A stretch of 64,000 bases of DNA, taken from Candidatus Accumulibacter sp. ACC003. Its GTDB lineage: Bacteria; Pseudomonadota; Gammaproteobacteria; Burkholderiales; Rhodocyclaceae. The number at the start of each line of letters is the position of its first letter. Within the stretch, counting starts at the first letter, position 1. Shown in pieces: positions 19,139 to 41,954 of this stretch. A program made the position numbers and the translations under genes. The DNA is taken from positions 1 to 64,000 of the forward strand of contig NZ_CAJQTX010000007.1 of NCBI RefSeq assembly GCF_907163085.1, read 5' to 3'. The notes below the pieces were generated by a model. That model was not told the DNA's origin and made no database searches. It saw only the letters and a program-made list of their open reading frames with translations.

Positions 19139-19224
19139 CGGCGGCCAGCACCGCCAGACATACTCGCGGAGCGGCGTCCGTGCAGCCACCTCGCTGGCAC
19201 GGTAAATTTGTTCTCGTGCCGGGA

Positions 19225-19974
19225 TCAAGGTGATACGTGGCCTGTAGAATTTTTGGTCATGCGCAGGTAGTCGAAGACCAATCGGATGTTGCGGTTGAGG
19301 TGGCGCATTTTTTCGGAAATGCTGGTTTTGCCGTCGGAGAAGTGGTGCAGGATTCCGACGGCAAAGCGGCGCAGGCGTGACATGTTCTCGGGTCCGTAAC
19401 CAGTCCGAATACGGCTACGGTCCTCGTCGTAGTTCCAGTCGATGACGTAGTGACAGCGGTTCTCTATCGACCAATGGCCGCGATTGATGGCGAGGATTTG
19501 CTGTGGGCTGGCCTGTTCTGGAGGGCGACTGGTGATCCCGAGAGCGATTTCGTGCGTCCGCTTGCCGCTCTTCTTGTGCAGCACTTCGCGCTCGATCAAG
19601 AACACCTGGCCGACATGCGGGAAGTCGAGATAGGCGTTGAGGGCATTGCTGCACCAAATACGCCGAGTCTCGATCCGACCATGGTCAGGTGGCGAAACCG
19701 CCATGAAGTCTGCCCCCTTCCGATCCTGGAAGAGGAGCGCGATATCGGCTTGCAGTGTTGGCTGATTGCCTTTGACCGTGAAGTGATAGTGCGCCTTGCG
19801 CTCCACCAGGTAGGTCGCCAGCTTGCGCTGTGTCAGTAGCGCGTCGGCGGTGATGTCCTTGCCCTGAATATCGATCGCATCGAGCAGGGGTATGAACATC
19901 CCGATTTCATTGGTCTGCTTGAGCTCGTCCCCGCCATTTACGGGCAAGGTGCCGACTTTTTTTGGGTGTGGCAC
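19225..19974 (-). CDS. ISAs1-type transposase, downstream frame: C-terminal DDE domain
   Basis: This frame overlaps the upstream one and is most simply read as its -1 frameshift extension (about 243 residues after the slip, giving a ~595-residue fusion). It holds the second catalytic Asp (DITADALLTQR) and the Glu-bearing C-terminal region (NRGHWSIENRCHYVIDWNYDEDRSRIR), both typical of ISAs1. An independent start at 19974 is possible but has no ribosome site. Confidence 0.88.
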   Translation of the reverse strand: MPHPKKVGTLPVNGGDELKQTNEIGMFIPLLDAIDIQGKDITADALLTQRKLATYLVERKAHYHFTVKGNQPTLQADIALLFQDRKGADFMAVSPPDHGRIETRRIWCSNALNAYLDFPHVGQVFLIEREVLHKKSGKRTHEIALGITSRPPEQASPQQILAINRGHWSIENRCHYVIDWNYDEDRSRIRTGYGPENMSRLRRFAVGILHHFSDGKTSISEKMRHLNRNIRLVFDYLRMTKNSTGHVSP

Positions 19975-21011
19975 ACGCCGGTCTGATGCCCGACCACACT
20001 CATGATGTGCGTTTGCTGACCGTGCTCGTCATGGGCATTGCGCATGGTCTTGCCGTCGACCGCCAGACTGGGGTCGTCTTGAGCATAGGCCTTGTTCCAC
20101 TGCTGACACGCTTGGTCGAGTGCCGTGGGATCGACGCGGATCAGGACGTCACGAATGATGAACTCGCTGGGTACGCGGTAAACGCCCTTCTCGCGACGAC
20201 AGCGGAAACGCTCGCGTGCTTTCGGTGTGAGGTCTTTGGCCCACCCGGCGATGGCTTTGTAGCCCTGCATTCCGCACAACGCCGCCGCCGTGGCGATGGC
20301 CAGCACGGCCGGCAGGGGATGGCGTCTTCCTTGCGCGCGCCGCGGGTCGGCGATGCCGGTAAAGAAATCGGGAAGCGTGCGCATCTGTTCGGCGGTGAGC
20401 ATCATCCTGGGCGCTCCTGTGCGATAGCGGGGGTTGAGTATCGAGCGGGAAAGTTGGCCGCGAGCGTCCGCCTGCAAGGGGCGAACAAAGACAACTTTGG
20501 GCGACGTCGGGTGGGCGCTGTAGCCTTCTCGGGTGCGGCGAAAGCCTTGCGTCAGCCCCAGAGGCGTCCAGTTCGCGGCGCGATAGACGGTCCCCTGGAA
20601 GCGCGAGGGGTCCACAAAGGTCTCCAGCAGTAACAGCGGCTTCCCGAAATGCGCCTGCCAATCCTCGGCGACCCGTCGCTCGCACAGCGAGAGCACCTTG
20701 GAGCCGAGATTGGGGTAATGCCAATCGGGAAGGATCAGAAAGCGACTGTTGTTGGCGACCAGGCCCAAGCGATCGTACTGATGCCGATAGTCCCAGCCGA
20801 TCCAGCGGTCACGAACGCCGCATTTCCAGGCCGCCGCAGAGAAACTCAGCAGGGCCGTCCACTTTTCGCCGTAGGTGGCCACGTACCAAAGCGTGTGCCC
20901 GATCTTCGCCAGGTCGCCCAGGTAGTGATGCTCTGCCATCAACTCCCGATAGCGAGCCTCTTCGCTCTTGCCCACCAAGCGAACACGCAATGCACCAAGA
21001 ACGCTTTCCAT
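19938..21011 (-). CDS. ISAs1-type transposase, upstream frame: DruA-like (DUF4338) domain plus N-terminal DDE part
   Basis: This 357-residue frame starts MESVLGALRVRLVGKSEE. Residues ~15-190 match DUF4338/DruA features: ARYRELMAEHHYLGD, RDRWIGWD, NNSRFLILP, LLETFVD and YRAANW. Residues ~215-310 are the ISAs1 N-terminal assisting region (LPDFFTGIADPRRAQGRRHP). The first catalytic Asp lies in LAVDGKTMRNA near 330. The frame ends soon after an A AAA AAG heptamer at 19962-19956, where ribosomes can slip into the downstream frame. Without frameshifting this product lacks the rest of the DDE core. Its own function, perhaps regulatory, is unknown. Confidence 0.88.
   Translation of the reverse strand: MESVLGALRVRLVGKSEEARYRELMAEHHYLGDLAKIGHTLWYVATYGEKWTALLSFSAAAWKCGVRDRWIGWDYRHQYDRLGLVANNSRFLILPDWHYPNLGSKVLSLCERRVAEDWQAHFGKPLLLLETFVDPSRFQGTVYRAANWTPLGLTQGFRRTREGYSAHPTSPKVVFVRPLQADARGQLSRSILNPRYRTGAPRMMLTAEQMRTLPDFFTGIADPRRAQGRRHPLPAVLAIATAAALCGMQGYKAIAGWAKDLTPKARERFRCRREKGVYRVPSEFIIRDVLIRVDPTALDQACQQWNKAYAQDDPSLAVDGKTMRNAHDEHGQQTHIMSVVGHQTGVCHTQKKSAPCP
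19956..19962 (-). other. Slippery heptamer A AAA AAG for -1 frameshifting
   Basis: In the transposase reading frame the codons are CAA AAA AAG TCG. A one-base slip on A AAA AAG continues as GTC GGC ACC TTG in the downstream frame. The same seven-A run followed by G occurs in copy 2, although the copies differ elsewhere. A AAA AAG is a well-known efficient bacterial -1 frameshift site. No strong downstream stem was found by eye. Confidence 0.75.
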
Positions 21012-21114
21012 GCGCCATTTATACGGACTTCCGGCGCAGATGTCCAGGGGGAAGAACTAACTGCTTGATTGCCCGTGCGTTGCCTGAGAGGACAAATCCA
21101 CCCTGCCTCGCTGG

Positions 21115-32292: not shown

Positions 32293-32826
32293 ATGCAGCG
32301 AATTGTAGCCGGCATCGAGACGATCGAGCAGCATCTTGAGGCCATCAAGCAAACCCCCGAAGCGTATCGACCGCCGTGCTGCCCGCATTGCGGCCTGAAG
32401 ATTCTCTGGCAGCACGGGCACTACGAGCGCAAGGCCGACCGGCGAGCCGGGCAGGATTCACTCAATCCGGTGCCGATCTGCCGCTACTGTTGCTCTGGAT
32501 GTCGGCGGACGTGTTCGCGTCTGCCGGCGTGCATCGCGCCGCGCCGCTGGTATGACTGGTCAGTGCAGCAAGCGGTCCTGGCACAGCGGCTGAGCGGTGC
32601 GCCCGATCGCCCCGGCGCACCCGGCGCGGCGCCCGAGCGGCGCACCGCCGGTCGCTGGTGGGCCTGGCTCCAGGAGCGCCGCCTGCTGTTCGAGTTTCAC
32701 CTGCGTGCTCGCTTTGCCGACCTCGGGCGGACGGTCGACGGCAGCGCTTTCTGGCGCCGGGTGTTCGAATCGATCGGCCTGGCACAGGCCATGACCTGGC
32801 TTGATCGGGAGATCAGCGTCCCGTGA
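32293..32826 (+). CDS. Transposon zinc-ribbon protein (DUF6431-like)
   Basis: This 177-residue protein is the first gene of the transposon. Cysteine clusters CCPHCGLK (about 29-36) and CRYCCSGCRRTC (about 63-74) suggest a zinc ribbon like those preceding some transposases; GHYERKADRR is typical of that fold. The rest is helical and basic, with a WVxV-poor HTH-like part (YDWSVQQAVLAQRL). It resembles DUF6431 proteins that accompany such elements. A DNA-binding or target-choice role is inferred. Confidence 0.65.
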   Translation: MQRIVAGIETIEQHLEAIKQTPEAYRPPCCPHCGLKILWQHGHYERKADRRAGQDSLNPVPICRYCCSGCRRTCSRLPACIAPRRWYDWSVQQAVLAQRLSGAPDRPGAPGAAPERRTAGRWWAWLQERRLLFEFHLRARFADLGRTVDGSAFWRRVFESIGLAQAMTWLDREISVP

Positions 32827-32955
32827 TGAACTGATTCCGAACGAGCGGCAGACGGTGAGGTCCCCGCCCGGGCGGGGACCCCACACAGTTTGCTCCTGTC
32901 ATTAGAACGGCCGTTCTGGTTTGATCACCGCTCCGATTTATCACCAGGAGTGGTT

Positions 32956-34207
32956 ATGAACCCGATTGATCCGAAAGCCCTGTTTCGCCTGTCCGTTCTC
33001 GGTCCCCTGATCAGCCGCGAGCGGCTGGAACGTGGCGAACTGCAACAGCTCCTCCGGGAGCTGGCCAGCCGCGAGTACGCCATCCCCGGCAGCCGTCGGC
33101 GCTATCTGAGCGAGAAGACGATTCAGGCGTGGTACTACGCCTGGCGCCTCCGCCAGCTTGACGGCCTGACGCCCAAGCCGCGCGCCGACCGCGGGCAATC
33201 GAAGCTCCCGGCCGCCACCCAGGCGGCCATTCTCGCCGCCAAGCGCGACAACCCGCGGCGCTCGCTGTGCCAGATTCGACAATTGCTCGAAGCCACCGGC
33301 ACCGTCGCCCGTGGCCGCCTGGCCCGGTCGACCATTCACCGTCTGCTGCAGCAGCACGGCCTGTCACGAATCAGCGGCTCGGCCAGCCTGCCCGAGGAGA
33401 AACGCAGCTTCGTCGCCGCGACAGCGGGGGCGATCTGGTATGGCGACGTGATGCACGGCCCACGCGTGCCGATCGACGGCAAACTCGCCAAGAGCTATCT
33501 CGTGTCGCTCTTCGACGACGCCTCCCGGCTACTCACGCACAGCGCCTTCTGCCCCGGAGAAACCGCCCTGGATATCGAAGGCGTGCTCAAGCAGGCGGTG
33601 CTCAAACGCGGCATTCCGCTCAAGCTGGTGGTCGATAACGGCGCCGCCTACCGCGCCGAGACGCTGCAAGGGATCTGCGCCCGGCTGGGCATCCACCTGA
33701 TTCACTGTCGGCCGTACGCGCCCGAGGGCAAAGGGAAGTTGGAGCGCTGGCACCGCCGCTGCCGCGATCAGTTTCTCAGCGAACTCGATGAGCGCCATAT
33801 CGCCAGCCTGGACGATCTCAATGCCCGCCTCTGGGCGTGGCTTGAACAGGTCTATCACCGCAGCCCGCACGCCGGTCTCGCCGGCATGACGCCGTTGGCG
33901 CGTTACCAGCAGGACCTGTCCAGGATTCGTCCGTTGGGGCCGTTGGCGGCAAGCCTCGATGCCCTGTTCCAGCATCGCGTCACGCGACTGGTCAGGAAGG
34001 ATGGCACGGTATCGTATCAGGGACAACGCTTCGAGGTGCCCTTTGAACTGTCGGGCAAAACGGTGTCTCTGGTGGTCGATCCGCATACCGAGACGGTGAT
34101 CGGCGTCGAGGACGAGCAAGGGGAACCGATCGGTGCGGCGACGCCACTCGATGCGCTGGCCAATGCCACGCGCCAACGACGCCAGTCTGACCCAGCGGAC
34201 GCTAGTC
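32956..34207 (+). pseudogene. TnsB/TniA-like D,D35E transposase, 5' fragment (split by IS)
   Basis: ATG 32956 follows CCAGGAG. The protein has an N-terminal HTH region (YLSEKTIQAWYYAWRLRQL), an rve/DDE core with Asp in WYGDVMHGP, Asp in VVDNGAAY and Glu in GKGKLERWH spaced D35E, and a Mu-type beta-barrel tail (QGQRFEVPFELSGKTVSLV). The real frame stops at 34207, where an IS4-type element begins; read-through to 34506 is antisense to that IS. Joining to 36630 restores about 445 residues ending LIEQIYQQYYDPEGE. Confidence 0.9.
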
Positions 34208-36621
34208 CTGCCCTTGCCCCACATCTTCAGCTAGCACGAGTTTTTCGTGTTGAGACAAAAGCCTTCGCACAGAGTCTGAAGCTGGGCATAGCCATGCCAC
34301 ATGATTTGATGTCCCGGGGGCGGATCGGTGGCACGGCCGAGGTAGCCACCCAGGCGAGCGACGAGAAGCACGGCATCACCCAGCTGTCTGGGCTGAGGCA
34401 GTCTTTTTTTTTGCATAGGCCTCGAGCACCTCGATTTCGAGGTCCGAGAATAGAACGTCAGCGGGAAGCCCGGGACATTCTCTGCCGAGCAGGGTCATCA
34501 ACATGATCCGCCAGGCAATCACCAGATGGATGGCGATGGCGCGTTGCAATCGCTCGGCGCTTCGATGCGCCAAGGCTTCGACGCGGCAACCGCTCTTCAG
34601 GACGCGATGCCAGTCTTCAATGCGCCAGCGCAGGCAGTACCAGCGCAGACACTCCTGTGCCTGCTCGACGGTCGTGATTTCGCGCGTCGTCAGCAGAAAC
34701 CACTCAAGCGCCTTGGCATCCTCTGGCGGAGCGGTTTCCCGCACGTGCACGACCCACAGCGTGATCGGCGCCTTCCCCTTGTGTGCGAGTGGTGGCGGTA
34801 GATCGACGCGCCGATAGCGCAAGGCGACCGCCGCACAGCGCTGCTTTCGCGGCGCACGGGCCTTCTGCTTGCTTTTCTTCGCTCGGGCACTTTGCCGAGG
34901 CACCGTGATATTCAAGCGGCCCTGCACCGGGCTTTGTCTGGCCGACTCGAAGAGACGCAGGGCCTCGCCGGTACAGCGGTCATGCTGGGCTCGGATCAAG
35001 AGATCGACGCGGGCGCGTTGGCGCTGCTCATCGAAGAGTTCAAAGAAATCGGCCTCGCGATCCATGACACAGATCTGGCGTGTCGTGGGGAGCTCTTTGG
35101 CCAGTTGGCTGCACGTGCGCAAGCCCTCAATCCAGGCGAAGGTCTTCTTCTCTTCAATCGGCACCGGCGTCGCCCCCGGCGGCTCGTTCTTCGCCGTGGC
35201 GATCGGCGCCGAGCACTGCGCCGCCAGAACGCCGAGCGGCAGGCCCTCGGTGCTCACGATCAGCGTCGAATGCAGGTGCAGCCCCCGACTCTGGGCACCC
35301 GTCTGATTGCTCCCGATCACCCCCAAGCCCTCGCATTGCGCGAGTCCGGAATAATTGAGGTCGCTGCCATCCTGGATGCACAGGACCGTCGCCTGCGCTT
35401 TCATCCGCTGCAGGGTCCGTTGGCGGTGCGGTGCCAGGATCGCTTCAAGGGTGACGGCCGAGTCAGCGGCCTGGTCGATCAGCCGGTAGTGCCCCTTGAC
35501 CGCGGCGCGGTCGCCTTGTGCCGCGCCGGAGAACGCGCGTCCGGGCATCGCCGCCAGCGTGCAGGCACTATCGACCAGGCGTTGGCTGAGCCGCTCATCC
35601 CCCAGTGCGGCCCCGGCAAACTCCTGCGCCGCCCACGCGTTGCCCTCCAGGCCCTCGGCGATCGTCAGCGCCGGTAGGCCGATCGGTTCGGGAAGCCCCA
35701 GTCGGCTGCGCCAGTCCGACGCCAAGGGATAGGCGTAGATCGCTTTGACCGTCTTGTTCTTCTGATGCGCGCGGTCTTGGCGGCCTCGACCTCGGGTTTG
35801 CCCGATGGCCTCCCAGTTCGCCGCCCGGTAACAGGTTCCGGCAAAATGCGCGCTGTCGACGAAGCTTTCGACCAGCCAGGGCTGATACCCGTACTGCGTT
35901 TGGAAATCCCCGCCCAGGCGACGAAGAACCATGCCCAGCACACGCGAGGCCAGGTTGTGACAAGCGACTGACGGCCGAATCAGAAAGCGGCTCATGCCCA
36001 CGACCCGGTGCAACTGTTGCCGGCGCGTCGTCGCGTCCCAGCCCATCCAGCGGTCCCGATCCGCCAGTTGCAGGGCGGCGGCGCCGAATCCCAGACCGCC
36101 CAGCCAACCATGCGCCGAGCCGATCAGGTAACGCATCTGTGCGCCCACCAGCGGCCCGGCCCCCTGTGGGTGTTCGCTCAGCATCAGTTCATTCCACAGC
36201 CGCATCTGATCGACCGTTTCAACCTGGAGTAGTGACAGTTCCTGAACCGCCTCCGCTTGCGCCGGTACACCGCTCGGCGCCTCGACCGGCTGTCCCAGGC
36301 GCCGTGGTCGGCGGCCTTCGACCGACACCCGCGGCCGTGCGCTGGGAAGGACAAAGTGACCGCCACGTTCCAACTCCCGCAGCGCCTTTATACAGCCACT
36401 GGTTTGTGCTTTCCCGCGCGCGTCGACAAAACCGAAGTGCCCGCACACCGCGCCAACAAACGCCGAACGCGTAGAATGACCAGAGCTACCCAGAAGGTTG
36501 CAGATCGTTTCGATCGAATCCGTTTGGGCTAGCGTTCGTTTAATCTGATGTTGTTTTTCCATCCCGTCAGGATGGCCGACCCGCCTTGAAAAGTCCAGCA
36601 CTTATTGTGGGGCAAGGGCAG
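34208..36621 (-). mobile_element. IS4/IS50-type insertion sequence with DruA-like domain
   Basis: This 2414-bp element has perfect 16-bp terminal inverted repeats CTGCCCTTGCCCCACA (34208-34223) and TGTGGGGCAAGGGCAG (36606-36621). Flanks CGCTAGTC (34200-34207) and CGCTAGCC (36622-36629) look like an 8-bp target duplication with one mismatch. Deleting 34208-36629 restores the interrupted DDE transposase reading frame exactly. It encodes one large transposase and is the innermost insertion of the nest. Confidence 0.92.
34376..36562 (-). CDS. IS4/IS50-type transposase fused to a full DruA-like (DUF4338) N-terminus
   Basis: From ATG 36562 the protein is 728 residues; the frame opens at ATG 36601 (741). 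Residues ~1-75 resemble the helical N-terminus of DruA proteins (SGCIKALRELERGGHFVLP). Residues ~130-280 are DUF4338-like: RDRWMGWD, MSRFLIRPSV, NLASRVLG, LVESFVDSAHF, GTCYRAANWEAIGQTRGRGR. The rest is an IS50/Tn5-type transposase: DNA-binding AAQEFAGAALGDERLSQRLV, first Asp in VLCIQDGSDLNYS, second Asp in ICVMDREADF, and the YREK-like Glu region RWRIEDWHRVLKSGCRVEAL. The frame is intact, so the element may be active. Confidence 0.92.
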   Translation of the reverse strand: MEKQHQIKRTLAQTDSIETICNLLGSSGHSTRSAFVGAVCGHFGFVDARGKAQTSGCIKALRELERGGHFVLPSARPRVSVEGRRPRRLGQPVEAPSGVPAQAEAVQELSLLQVETVDQMRLWNELMLSEHPQGAGPLVGAQMRYLIGSAHGWLGGLGFGAAALQLADRDRWMGWDATTRRQQLHRVVGMSRFLIRPSVACHNLASRVLGMVLRRLGGDFQTQYGYQPWLVESFVDSAHFAGTCYRAANWEAIGQTRGRGRQDRAHQKNKTVKAIYAYPLASDWRSRLGLPEPIGLPALTIAEGLEGNAWAAQEFAGAALGDERLSQRLVDSACTLAAMPGRAFSGAAQGDRAAVKGHYRLIDQAADSAVTLEAILAPHRQRTLQRMKAQATVLCIQDGSDLNYSGLAQCEGLGVIGSNQTGAQSRGLHLHSTLIVSTEGLPLGVLAAQCSAPIATAKNEPPGATPVPIEEKKTFAWIEGLRTCSQLAKELPTTRQICVMDREADFFELFDEQRQRARVDLLIRAQHDRCTGEALRLFESARQSPVQGRLNITVPRQSARAKKSKQKARAPRKQRCAAVALRYRRVDLPPPLAHKGKAPITLWVVHVRETAPPEDAKALEWFLLTTREITTVEQAQECLRWYCLRWRIEDWHRVLKSGCRVEALAHRSAERLQRAIAIHLVIAWRIMLMTLLGRECPGLPADVLFSDLEIEVLEAYAKKKTASAQTAG

Positions 36622-36629
36622 CGCTAGCC

Positions 36630-36707: not shown

Positions 36708-37502
36708 GTGGACCTTCAGCACTTTGGTTTGCGGCATCCGCCGCTGGGCAAGCAAGCGGCCGAGCTGTGGGATGACGGTACGCTGGGACAGTTGGCCGAG
36801 CGCTTTGCGTGGTTGTTGCACTCACCGGGCGTCGGCCTGATCACCGGCGAACCCGGGGTGGGCAAGACGGCGGCCTTGCGCCAATTGACCCGTGGCCTGA
36901 ATCCGCATCGTTATCAGGTGATCTATCAGGCGGAGACCGACTTTGGTCGGCTGGATATCTATCGCGGTCTGGCACGGGCGCTGGGTGTCGAGCCGGGGTA
37001 TCGGCGGGCGCAGCTGTGGCGCGATCTGAAGGAGCGGATTCTGCAGTTGGTCGATAGCCGTCAGCTGATGCCGGTGTGGATCATCGATGAGGCGCAGAAT
37101 CTGCCGCCGGAGTTCTTTCGGGATTTGCCGGCCTTCCTCAACTTCGCCTTCGATACGCGCGATGTGATGGCGGTCTGGTTGATCGGTCATCCAACACTGG
37201 CGCAAACGCTGGAGCGGGCGCCTTATGCGGCGCTGGCGGGGCGGATTCAGGTGCGCGTGCAGCTCAAGCCGGTGCTCGAACGCGAGCGCTTCGCGCTGCT
37301 GATCCAGCACAGCCTGAAGAGTGCCGGTTGTACCAGTACGCTGCTCAGCGATTCAGGCCTGGAGATCTTGCGCCAAGCGAGCAAGGGCTTGCCGCGGCAT
37401 GCCGGGCGAATTCTGCGCACGGCGATGCGCCTGGCGGTGCCGCGTGGTTTGAATCATTTGCCGGACGATCTGTTGCAGTTGGCGATCGAGGAATTGCGAT
37501 GA
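36708..37502 (+). CDS. TnsC/TniB/ExeA-like AAA+ transposition ATPase
   Basis: This 264-residue ATPase starts at GTG 36708 with GAGTGAGG just upstream. Walker A is GEPGVGKT (about residues 46-53) and Walker B with Asp-Glu is PVWIIDEAQNLP; sensor-like WLIGHPTLAQTL follows. Such ATPases select the target and activate a TnsB-like transposase. Its length is close to the Tn552 ATPase type. It is intact although its transposase partner is split. Its last codons overlap the next small gene (ATGA). Confidence 0.9.
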   Translation: MDLQHFGLRHPPLGKQAAELWDDGTLGQLAERFAWLLHSPGVGLITGEPGVGKTAALRQLTRGLNPHRYQVIYQAETDFGRLDIYRGLARALGVEPGYRRAQLWRDLKERILQLVDSRQLMPVWIIDEAQNLPPEFFRDLPAFLNFAFDTRDVMAVWLIGHPTLAQTLERAPYAALAGRIQVRVQLKPVLERERFALLIQHSLKSAGCTSTLLSDSGLEILRQASKGLPRHAGRILRTAMRLAVPRGLNHLPDDLLQLAIEELR

Positions 37503-39133: not shown

Positions 39134-40036
39134 TCAGCGTTCCATGCGCATCGAGTGTTCGGGCTGACGAATAGCCAGGCGGGAACGACGCGCCTGCTGA
39201 TCATCCGGGGCACGCCAAGCGCTGGTGTTGTGCCTCTCTGGCAAGCACGTGCCGTCTGTCGGTGATCGCCGGCAAACGGCCCGTCTGTGCTGGCTGACGA
39301 TTCCCAGAAGGGCCAGGCTCAAGCCGATCAGCGCCAGACTTGTCGGTTCGGGCACTTCGATTCTGAGACTATTCCAGGCATTCCAAGCAGGACCCATGCC
39401 AGTCGGGTTGATGGGGAACGGCTGGCTGAACATCCCGGATTCGTCAAAGCGGACGGCAACCACCTGCGTGATGTCGAACAGCGGGTCGCTCCAGTAGAAC
39501 GAGAACGGGTTCTGCAAGCCCAAGTTCGGGCTGATCCAGAAGGTGTCCCACACGTTGGCGGGTCCAAACCGGAACCACCCCCGGGAACGGCCATTGCCAT
39601 CAATCAGTTCGAGTGACAAGTCCCAGACGCCGGGCGGTGGATAGACGGAGAAATGGATCATGCTGCTGCCGGTCTGCATGTTAACCGGCGTGCCGAACCG
39701 GTAGTCCCACCAGGCAATGGCAAGGGCATTGCTCGTTGGCAGGTCCCATGACATCGCTAGCGTGTTGTCAATCGTCGTCTGGCCGTCACTTATCTGCACA
39801 TCCGGCGCTAGCGTCGCTCCGACAACGGCCAGGGGAACGTTTTGGGGAACGTAGAATTCCAGAGCCGCCTGCGTCAGGTTGTCGCCGTTCGCCGAAGGGA
39901 CGATGTTGCCGGCGCTGATGGCCTGCTGCCAGGAGGTGCTGGCGGGGATGTCAACGACCACTGTGGCGACAGCCGTTGCTGACGATAGCATGGCCACGGC
40001 AGCGATGAGAAAGTCAAGGCCTCTCTTGGTGTACGT
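39134..40036 (-). pseudogene. PEP-CTERM protein, main fragment (start cut off by IS)
   Basis: This frame reads TYTKRGLDFLIAAVAMLSS, a signal peptide, then a secreted domain rich in Trp and aromatic residues (WDLPTSNALAIAWWDYR, FSFYWSDPLFDITQVV). A PEP-CTERM signal follows: VPEPT, hydrophobic SLALIGLSLALLG, then QHRR. It is followed by an odd 46-residue tail. The start codon is missing because the ISAs1 copy 2 inserted after codon 5; the original ATG is at 41969. Reconstructed length is 305 residues. The secreted domain has no recognised family. Confidence 0.87.
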
Positions 40037-40130
40037 CAGGGTGGATTTGTCCTCTCAGGCAACGCACGGGCAATCAAGCAGTTAGTTCTTCCCCCTGGAC
40101 ATCTGCGCCGGAAGTCCGTATAAATGGCGC

Positions 40131-41204
40131 ATGGAAAGCGTTCTTGGTGCATTGCGTGTTCGCTTGGTGGGCAAGAGCGAAGAGGCTCGCTATCGGGAGT
40201 TGATGGCAGAGCATCACTACCTGGGCGACCTGGCGAAGATCGGGCACACGCTTTGGTACGTGGCCACCTACGGCGAAAAGTGGACGGCCCTGCTGAGTTT
40301 CTCTGCGGCGGCCTGGAAATGCGGCGTTCGTGACCGCTGGATCGGCTGGGACTATCGGCATCAGTACGATCGCTTGGGCCTGGTCGCCAACAACAGTCGC
40401 TTTCTGATCCTTCCCGATTGGCATTACCCCAATCTCGGCTCCAAGGTGCTCTCGCTGTGCGAGCGACGGGTCGCCGAGGATTGGCAGGCGCATTTCGGGA
40501 AGCCGCTGTTACTGCTGGAGACCTTTGTGGACCCCTCGCGCTTCCAGGGGACCGTCTATCGCGCCGCGAACTGGACGCCTCTGGGGCTGACGCAAGGCTT
40601 TCGCCGCACCCGAGAAGGCTACAGCGCCCACCCGACGTCGCCCAAAGTTGTCTTTGTTCGCCCCTTGCAGGCGGACGCTCGCGGCCAACTTTCCCGCTCG
40701 ATACTCAACCCCCGCTATCGCACAGGAGCGCCCAGGATGATGCTCACCGCCGAACAGATGCGCACGCTTCCCGATTTCTTTGCCGGCATCGCCGACCCGC
40801 GGCGCGCGCAAGGAAGGCGTCACCCCCTTCCTGCCGTTCTGGCCATCGCCACGGCGGCGGTCTTGTGCGGAATGCGGGGCTACAAAGCCATCGCCGGGTG
40901 GGCCAAAGACCTCACACCGAAAGCACGCGAGCGTTTCCGCTGTCGTCGCGAGAAGGGCGTTTACCGCGTACCCAGCGAGTTCATCATTCGTGACGTCCTG
41001 ATCCGTGTCGATCCCATGGCGCTCGATCAAGCGTGTCAGCAGTGGAACAAGGCCTATGCTCAAGACGACCCCAGTCTGGCGGTCGACGGCAAGACCATGC
41101 GCAATGCCCATGACGAGCACGGTCAGCAAGCACACATCATGAGCGTGGTCGGGCATCAGACCGGCGTGTGTCACACCCAAAAAAAGTCGGCACCTTGCCC
41201 GTAA
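40131..41204 (+). CDS. ISAs1-type transposase copy 2, upstream frame with DruA-like domain
   Basis: This 357-residue frame has the same layout as copy 1: DUF4338-like residues ~15-190, ISAs1 N-terminal region, first catalytic Asp in LAVDGKTMRNA, and the slippery heptamer at 41180-41186. Replacements relative to copy 1 include T to A in DFFAGIADP, A to V and Q to R in VLCGMRGYK, T to M in VDPMALD, and T to A in GQQAHIM. The DruA-like part is unchanged. Confidence 0.88.
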   Translation: MESVLGALRVRLVGKSEEARYRELMAEHHYLGDLAKIGHTLWYVATYGEKWTALLSFSAAAWKCGVRDRWIGWDYRHQYDRLGLVANNSRFLILPDWHYPNLGSKVLSLCERRVAEDWQAHFGKPLLLLETFVDPSRFQGTVYRAANWTPLGLTQGFRRTREGYSAHPTSPKVVFVRPLQADARGQLSRSILNPRYRTGAPRMMLTAEQMRTLPDFFAGIADPRRAQGRRHPLPAVLAIATAAVLCGMRGYKAIAGWAKDLTPKARERFRCRREKGVYRVPSEFIIRDVLIRVDPMALDQACQQWNKAYAQDDPSLAVDGKTMRNAHDEHGQQAHIMSVVGHQTGVCHTQKKSAPCP

Positions 41205-41917
41205 ATGGCGGGGACGAGCTCAAGCAGACCAATGAAATCGGGATGTTCATACCCCTGCTCGATGCGATCGATATTCAGGGCAAGGACATCACCGCCGACG
41301 CGCTACTGACACAGCGCAAGCTGGCGACCTACCTGGTGGAGCGCAAGGCGCACTATCACTTCACGGTCAAAGGCAATCAGCCAACACTGCAAGCCGATAT
41401 CGCGCTCCTCTTCCAGGATCGGAAGGGGGCAGACTTCGTGGCGGTTTCGCCACCTGACCATGGTCGGATCGAGACTCGGCGTATTTGGTGCAGCAATGCC
41501 CTCAACGCCTATCTCGACTTCCCGCATGTCGGCCAGGTGTTCTTGATCGAGCGCGAAGTGCTGCACAAGAAGAGCGGCAAGCGGACGCACGAAATCGCTC
41601 TCGGGATCACCAGTCGCCCTCCAGAACAGGCCAGCCCACAGCAAATCCTCGCCATCAATCGCGGCCATTGGTCGATAGAGAACCGCTGTCACTACGTCAT
41701 CGACTGGAACTACGACGAGGACCGTAGCCGTATTCGGACTGGTTACGGACCCGAGAACATGTCACGCCTGCGCCGCTTTGCCGTCGGAATCCTGCACCAC
41801 TTCTCCGACGGCAAAACCAGCATTTCCGAAAAAATGCGCCACCTCAACCGCAACATCCGATTGGTCTTCGACTACCTGCGCATGACCAAAAATTCTACAG
41901 GCCACGTATCACCTTGA
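41168..41917 (+). CDS. ISAs1-type transposase copy 2, downstream frame
   Basis: This encodes the C-terminal DDE part, reached by -1 frameshifting from the preceding frame to give a ~595-residue fusion. It carries DITADALLTQR (second Asp) and ENRCHYVIDWNYDEDRSRIR (Glu region). It is almost identical to copy 1 (M to V in KGADFVAVS). GTG 41168 is available as an independent start but has no clear ribosome site. Confidence 0.88.
   Translation: MSHPKKVGTLPVNGGDELKQTNEIGMFIPLLDAIDIQGKDITADALLTQRKLATYLVERKAHYHFTVKGNQPTLQADIALLFQDRKGADFVAVSPPDHGRIETRRIWCSNALNAYLDFPHVGQVFLIEREVLHKKSGKRTHEIALGITSRPPEQASPQQILAINRGHWSIENRCHYVIDWNYDEDRSRIRTGYGPENMSRLRRFAVGILHHFSDGKTSISEKMRHLNRNIRLVFDYLRMTKNSTGHVSP
41180..41186 (+). 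other. Slippery heptamer A AAA AAG, copy 2
   Basis: The zero frame reads CAA AAA AAG TCG and stops 24 bases later (TGC CCG TAA). The -1 frame continues as GTC GGC ACC through the DDE domain. It is identical to the site in copy 1. Confidence 0.75.
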
Positions 41918-41954
41918 TCCCGGCACGAGAACAAATTTACCGTGTGGTGTACGT

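Follow-up and report, generated by a model that had tools for sequence, protein, structure and literature searches.

DruA domains as a widespread, exchangeable module of insertion sequences, possibly related to the DNA-modifying enzyme Mom of phage Mu

The proteins considered here combine a DruA domain (DUF4338, Pfam PF14236) with a transposase and are encoded by insertion sequences (ISs) in 64,000 nucleotides of Candidatus Accumulibacter sp. ACC003 (contig NZ_CAJQTX010000007.1, positions 1 to 64,000; the window). Several described systems are close to them. DruA of Druantia (PADLOC models PDLC00001/PDLC00002) carries the same Pfam domain and is listed as being of unknown function in the relevant part of a survey (PMC7251935). 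The same domain, called a GNAT domain in the section concerned (PMC10853773), is fused to the NTPase DndF of a defence system, whereas its partner in the window is a transposase. Mom of phage Mu (PDB 8bv8, PF25680) is a DNA-modifying enzyme (methylcarbamoylase) with a GNAT fold. For insertion sequences, the section on the IS50 subgroup in PMC2266710 gives target duplications of 8-9 bp and lengths of 1350-1550 bp, and uses YREK as the signature name for the IS4 family.

In the window a DruA domain is present in one IS4/IS50-type and two ISAs1-type elements, as the original prediction had claimed. PF14236 (cut-off 27 bits) covers residues 119-283 of the 741-aa IS4-type open reading frame (ORF; E 1.2e-33, 117 bits) and residues 8-157 of both ISAs1-type ORFs (E 2.7e-25, 89.6 bits). 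The N-terminal motifs quoted in that prediction are present in the sequence and align between the types. A chance match or unrelated domains, the outcome named beforehand as refuting the claim, was rejected by the PF14236 scores and by the alignment, in which the five other DruA types of this genome share 33-42% identity with the IS66-type row. The catalytic parts belong to different branches, also as proposed: in the IS4-type ORF DruA is followed by Tnp_DNA_bind (residues 322-378) and DDE_Tnp_1 (residues 499-695), with 293 bits for NCBIfam IS4_3, and in the ISAs1 type by DDE_Tnp_1_assoc, with DDE_Tnp_1 in a second frame (scanned for copy A).

The link to Druantia holds at the level of the PF14236 superfamily but not by the PADLOC DruA models. 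Under these the IS4 type reaches E 0.021 and the IS66 type of this genome 2.8e-4, the ISAs1 type having no match, versus 1e-110 to 1e-178 (368-592 bits) for four defence-type DruA proteins. Druantia DruA proper was rejected on these marginal or absent matches. Transposon DruA also differs from Druantia DruA in its neighbours, which are transposases, and in the tree described below, where the two defence rows form one separate branch, very long in the quick tree. The original prediction saw no druB-E genes nearby; the neighbours scanned in the window are transposase genes and an AAA ATPase.

The source genome contains 83 PF14236 matches, all above the cut-off; none of 14 control genomes has one. 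Five insertion-sequence types account for 82 of them (32 IS66-type, 25 ISAs1, 21 second ISAs1-like, 3 of the window IS4 type and 1 second IS4 type) and one is degenerate; the types were assigned by reading loci of each type, the remaining members being placed by match span and open-frame size. The ISAs1-type count agrees with 25 exact element ends in the genome. In the second ISAs1-like type DruA and transposase occupy overlapping frames, and in the IS66 type druA is a separate gene after the transposase. Homology to the first IS66 locus (L001) stops about 50 bp past druA in 29 of 29 other loci (L001-L030), so the IS66-borne druA lies inside the mobile unit. The genome has 40 IS66 transposase matches versus 32 linked druA genes, and the top scorers are of another subtype; the module is therefore optional. 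Among near genomes 20 of 61, own included, have a PF14236 match, all of one genus. The other 19 have 1 to 5 each, compared with 83 in the 5.4 Mb of the source genome, a gap that repeat collapse may explain in part, since many other assemblies of the genus are more fragmented; the two single-contig genomes of the genus, G388 and G393, have 1 and 0 matches. Of 72,556 plasmid records, 2 match the window DruA domain.

Outside this genome, a contig scan returned at least 544 pattern matches, at least 530 of them encoding relatives, and the best 80 were analysed with transposase profiles cleared of DruA by cutting or masking, so that fused ORFs would not contaminate them. A transposase was found at 65 of the 80 loci, fused in 6 and within 1 kb in the others, and all 71 separate transposase neighbours have the same direction as druA. 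At the remaining 15 loci, several of them at contig ends, no transposase was found. The two transposase branches of the original prediction were thus confirmed but proved an incomplete list. According to Pfam or NCBIfam calls on representatives, druA precedes or follows IS66 transposases, is fused to IS4_3 and IS4_1 (155.5 and 167.6 bits, cut-off 115), and adjoins IS4_2 (139.1 bits, below the cut-off of 152) and, in one locus, ISKra4 (328.7 bits, cut-off 205); ISAs1 and ISAs1-like transposases occur with DruA outside the source genome too, and matches to IS1182-like transposases are weak, far below the cut-off.

The 65 transposase-linked relatives span more than six phyla, including Pseudomonadota, Planctomycetota, Acidobacteria, Bacillota, Verrucomicrobia, Gemmatimonadota and Chloroflexi. 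Isolate genomes are among the loci (e.g., L081, Lentibacillus kapialis, with an adjacent transposase), so transposon-linked DruA is not only an artefact of metagenome-assembled genomes. Because the best-80 sample favours close IS66-type relatives, even genome draws were added. In Pseudomonadota 10 of 150 genomes, own included, have a DruA match; the 12 loci outside the own genome comprise 3 transposase fusions, 3 long defence-type proteins and 6 fragments or unassigned loci. In Acidobacteria, the phylum of G252, a match was found in 12 of 119 genomes, centre genome included; the 19 loci outside the centre genome divide into 13 with a transposase, 1 of defence type, 2 unassigned and 3 fragments, and in the centre genome a transposase is present at 6 of 6 DruA loci. 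One Arenicellales chromosome has 52 DruA matches. Two phage-borne standalone DruA genes, the two phage contexts scanned, lie beside a terminase large subunit (L128 5965-8247) and a family B DNA polymerase (L136 5956-9328).

Other arrangements were observed alongside these. At L087 3548-7005 and L118 3345-6969, where no transposase was found, the protein encoded beside DruA matches radical SAM below the cut-off. In two genomes (L282 8713-12851, L259 7681-11772) a defence-type DruA is followed by a gene of 409-418 aa without a PADLOC match and by a HerA-type ATPase, which makes this arrangement a candidate defence cassette. Long DruA proteins of 702-1297 aa (L269 6304-10194, L270 3-3233, L271 8483-10588) are of defence rather than transposon type, the first two also having weak NTPase-type matches.

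A tree of 97 DruA domains (unrooted, two long phage rows dropped) has 13 IS-family changes between seven labels, compared with a minimum of 6 and a shuffled mean of 45.2. The starred branches require no fewer than 3 changes each for IS66 and IS4 and no fewer than 2 each for ISAs1 and IS1182-like labels. Both window domains fall within starred sets, which hold 11 IS4 rows for the IS4 type and 9 ISAs1 rows for the ISAs1 type. A single clade of the 14 IS4_3 and 11 ISAs1 rows was rejected by the approximately unbiased (AU) test (p-AU 0.0168), which was run after the quick tree had been seen, on a question that came from the original prediction, namely whether the domain had been acquired repeatedly or swapped. 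Because of the 13 changes and the AU rejection, the DruA module has been exchanged between IS families. This member of the DruA superfamily is a real and widespread module that transposons exchange, either fused to the transposase or lying beside its gene in the same direction.

The structure model of DruA is confident and has a GNAT fold, for which phage Mu Mom is the best structural (VIA) match. The two proteins share the ordered motifs HY, R, S, G.(V/C)Y.A.N and G. The serine mutated in inactive Mom (8bv8) is paired with S206 of DruA and is S or T in all 76 DruA rows with a letter there; in a predicted fold, DruA combines a GNAT architecture with the residue that pairs with this serine. At E 0.05 Mom was the only GNAT family that sequence profiles connected with DruA. 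DruA differs from Mu Mom in being only about 18% identical to it and in residing in transposons, Mom being encoded in a late phage operon. The window domain does not reach the Pfam Mom threshold, PF25680 giving it 13.2-15.4 bits against a curated cut-off of 27.1.

Several results weigh against a Mom-like activity. Comparison of DruA with Mom by hhalign produced a weak match (E 0.0017 at 15.6% probability; E 0.0087 at 4.6% for a smaller alignment), and S206 is matched to the Mom serine through a weak alignment. Mu Mom alone scores barely better than shuffles with the DruA profile (0.38 vs 0.52), and the Mom profile had no match at E 0.001 among the 12 of 56 candidates scored in the own genome. 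The position near the FAD aspartate of Mom varies in DruA (E in 32, D in 27, Q in 8 and K in 4 of 76 rows). Another position is Y in 72 of 76 rows but P in the window IS4 copy (P132) and in 3 other rows. Other GNATs are structurally close to Mom in score, which makes a protein substrate possible. A PDB sequence search with the DruA profile returned one chance-level match (E 0.35).

The IS66-borne gene also bears on function. It gave a full open frame in 29 of 30 loci, a count that is partly built in, as frames of at least 200 aa were picked, and dN/dS (nonsynonymous to synonymous substitution; pairwise Nei-Gojobori counts without a significance test) is about 0.033/0.20 between its two subgroups and 0.22-0.26 for the IS66 transposase. 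The homology, the predicted fold closest to Mom, the conserved Mom serine, the mobility of the fused elements, this low dN/dS and the exchange between IS families point, at roughly even odds in our judgement, to DruA as a Mom-like DNA-modifying accessory module that serves the transposon. We infer the activity itself, DNA as its substrate, the chemistry and the benefit. DruA would most likely add an acyl-type group to bases of transposase-bound DNA, by analogy with Mu Mom to adenines of the element or its ends. The modification could protect the element from host nucleases while it is excised or replicating or, alternatively, mark it for transposition control. The protective role raised in the original prediction would be compatible with the Mom-like fold.

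The other role raised there, DNA targeting, found no support in the flanks of 28 of 30 IS66-type (L007 and L028 omitted as repeats of L006 and L009) and 23 of 25 ISAs1-type copies (two repeats omitted), where no strong common target motif was found and CTAG occurred in none. Against this, two of 12 IS66 columns (0.33 and 0.36 bits) and one of 10 ISAs1 columns (0.25) exceed the 95% random level, though none the 99.5% level. With no strong common motif, a target preference shared across DruA-bearing ISs was rejected, and a targeting role is disfavoured. The same flanks, lacking a common target, speak against DruA as a non-catalytic DNA-binding module that aids end binding or target choice by the transposase, an explanation we consider unlikely, because active-site-like residues are invariant, the ISAs1 type lacks the N-terminal part, and the winged-helix match of that part in the IS4-type ORF is weak (the structure search found no confident fold and no Foldseek E below 1). 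DruA as an ordinary protein-acetylating GNAT, acting on the transposase itself, a host nuclease or a nucleoid protein, appears improbable to a similar degree: many protein N-acetyltransferases lie within 2-3 Z units of Mom, but the profiles connect DruA with Mom alone among GNAT families at E 0.05, and both scanned phage copies adjoin DNA replication or packaging genes.

DruA could also be a host-defence gene that transposons have repeatedly picked up as a passenger and that plays no part in transposition, since members of the family are found in defence settings (beside HerA-type ATPases, with PADLOC DruA scores of 410-420 bits) and many ISs, including some with the 40 IS66 transposase matches of this genome, do without it. 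Against this stand the in-frame fusions inside IS4- and ISAs1-family transposases, the uniform direction of the separate neighbours and the failure of PADLOC to place transposon DruA domains in Druantia, and capture as a mere passenger seems very unlikely. For the Mom-like accessory module, the presence of the same Mom-related domain in several IS families suggests that transposons modify DNA for their movement or survival.

The features of the window elements are collected in Table 1. The IS4-type ORF starts with GTG at 36601; the start at 36562 given in the original prediction is an in-frame ATG. By eye, the YREK signature is intact in the translation, with the spacing Y-x2-R-x3-E-x6-K, which we take to be the IS4 signature. 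The element shares Tnp_DNA_bind, DDE, YREK and an 8-bp target duplication (CGCTAGtC / CGCTAGCC) with the IS50/Tn5 subgroup but exceeds its length range, having an extra N-terminal DruA and helical region; the surplus is about the size of the DruA part. It is inserted within a multi-copy element that encodes an rve transposase as well as an AAA ATPase (32890-34506, 36708-37502); the left flank of this host element occurs 12 times in the genome. Ten of these loci were examined: seven have an empty site, with the uninterrupted target ...GGACGCTAGCCCGCCCC..., two have the IS (the window and L308, where an end of the IS4-DruA element lies at the same site) and one, L311, was unreadable by anchor. 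A second full copy of the IS4-type element (L032) has a perfect 8-bp duplication, CCCTAGCC. The target duplications, together with sister copies whose site is empty, show that the window elements have moved; they are complete and recently mobile. The host element itself (32293-34506 and 36708-37502) comprises a DUF6431 gene, the rve/Mu-C-like transposase and the AAA ATPase.

Table 1. Coordinates of the DruA-bearing elements in the window.
Feature	Position	Strand	Basis
IS4/IS50-type insertion sequence with fused DruA-transposase gene, 2414 bp	34208..36621	-	16-bp terminal repeats; absence from sister host-element copies
Terminal inverted repeat CTGCCCTTGCCCCACA, IS4/IS50-type element	34208..34223	+	perfect 16-bp repeat
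Terminal inverted repeat TGTGGGGCAAGGGCAG, IS4/IS50-type element	36606..36621	+	perfect 16-bp repeat
Target duplication CGCTAGTC, one mismatch, IS4/IS50-type element	34200..34207	.	empty site in 7 sister copies
Target duplication CGCTAGCC, IS4/IS50-type element	36622..36629	.	empty-site comparison
Fused DruA-IS4 transposase, 741 aa (728 aa from ATG at 36562)	34376..36601	-	Pfam/NCBIfam matches
N-terminal helical region of IS4-type ORF, winged-helix-like (weak)	36365..36562	-	
DruA (GNAT/Mom-like) domain, IS4 type	35753..36247	-	
Tnp_DNA_bind (Tn5-type)	35468..35638	-	PF14706 E 2.2e-11
DDE_Tnp_1 catalytic domain	34517..35107	-	PF01609 E 8e-07
ISAs1-DruA element copy A, 1908 bp, 99.0% identical to copy B	19198..21105	-	
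DruA domain, ISAs1 copy A	20541..20990	-	PF14236 E 2.7e-25
Frame junction with A AAA AAG (-1 slippery heptamer in phase), copy A	19931..19970	-	
Target duplication CCTCGCTGG, copy A, repeated at 21106-21114	19189..19197	.	
ISAs1-DruA element copy B, 1908 bp	40037..41944	+	
DruA domain, ISAs1 copy B	40152..40601	+	PF14236 E 2.7e-25
Frame junction with A AAA AAG, copy B	41172..41211	+	
Target duplication TGGTGTACGT, copy B, repeated at 41945-41954	40027..40036	.	

The two ISAs1 copies are mutually inverted, and the lengths of their target duplications (CCTCGCTGG, TGGTGTACGT) are uncertain by one base. They share DDE_Tnp_1_assoc, DDE and an NCBIfam ISAs1 match with the ISAs1 family (second frame 137.8 bits; first frame 51.2, below the cut-off of 70), but differ from it by the N-terminal DruA and a transposase split at A AAA AAG. 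Each transposase, taken for a single ORF in the original prediction (19225-21011, 40131-41917), in fact consists of two overlapping frames (357 + 249 aa). The A7 run is retained in 23 of 24 readable copies of the 25 ISAs1-type elements and, together with the -1 frame change at A AAA AAG in the correct phase, suggests that the transposase could be made by programmed -1 frameshifting. A homopolymer run is present in the overlap of 3 of 6 other split-frame DruA-bearing ISAs1-type elements (L298, an A run, -1; L231 and L236, a C6 run, +1), possibly through assembly errors.

No description of DruA-bearing transposons was found in the literature searched, an incomplete collection. We propose tentatively, at somewhat less than even odds, that several IS families (three firm, up to five) exchange a Mom-like DNA-modification enzyme that protects or licenses their DNA, and that Druantia DruA is likewise DNA-modifying and derived from, or shared with, mobile elements. 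For annotation, PF14236 alone does not mean Druantia: because 82 of the 83 matches here are of transposon type, defence surveys that use it as a Druantia marker would count jumping genes. If the proposal is true, simple insertion sequences that modify bases would represent a new transposon strategy, and Druantia DruA would gain a concrete, testable chemistry.
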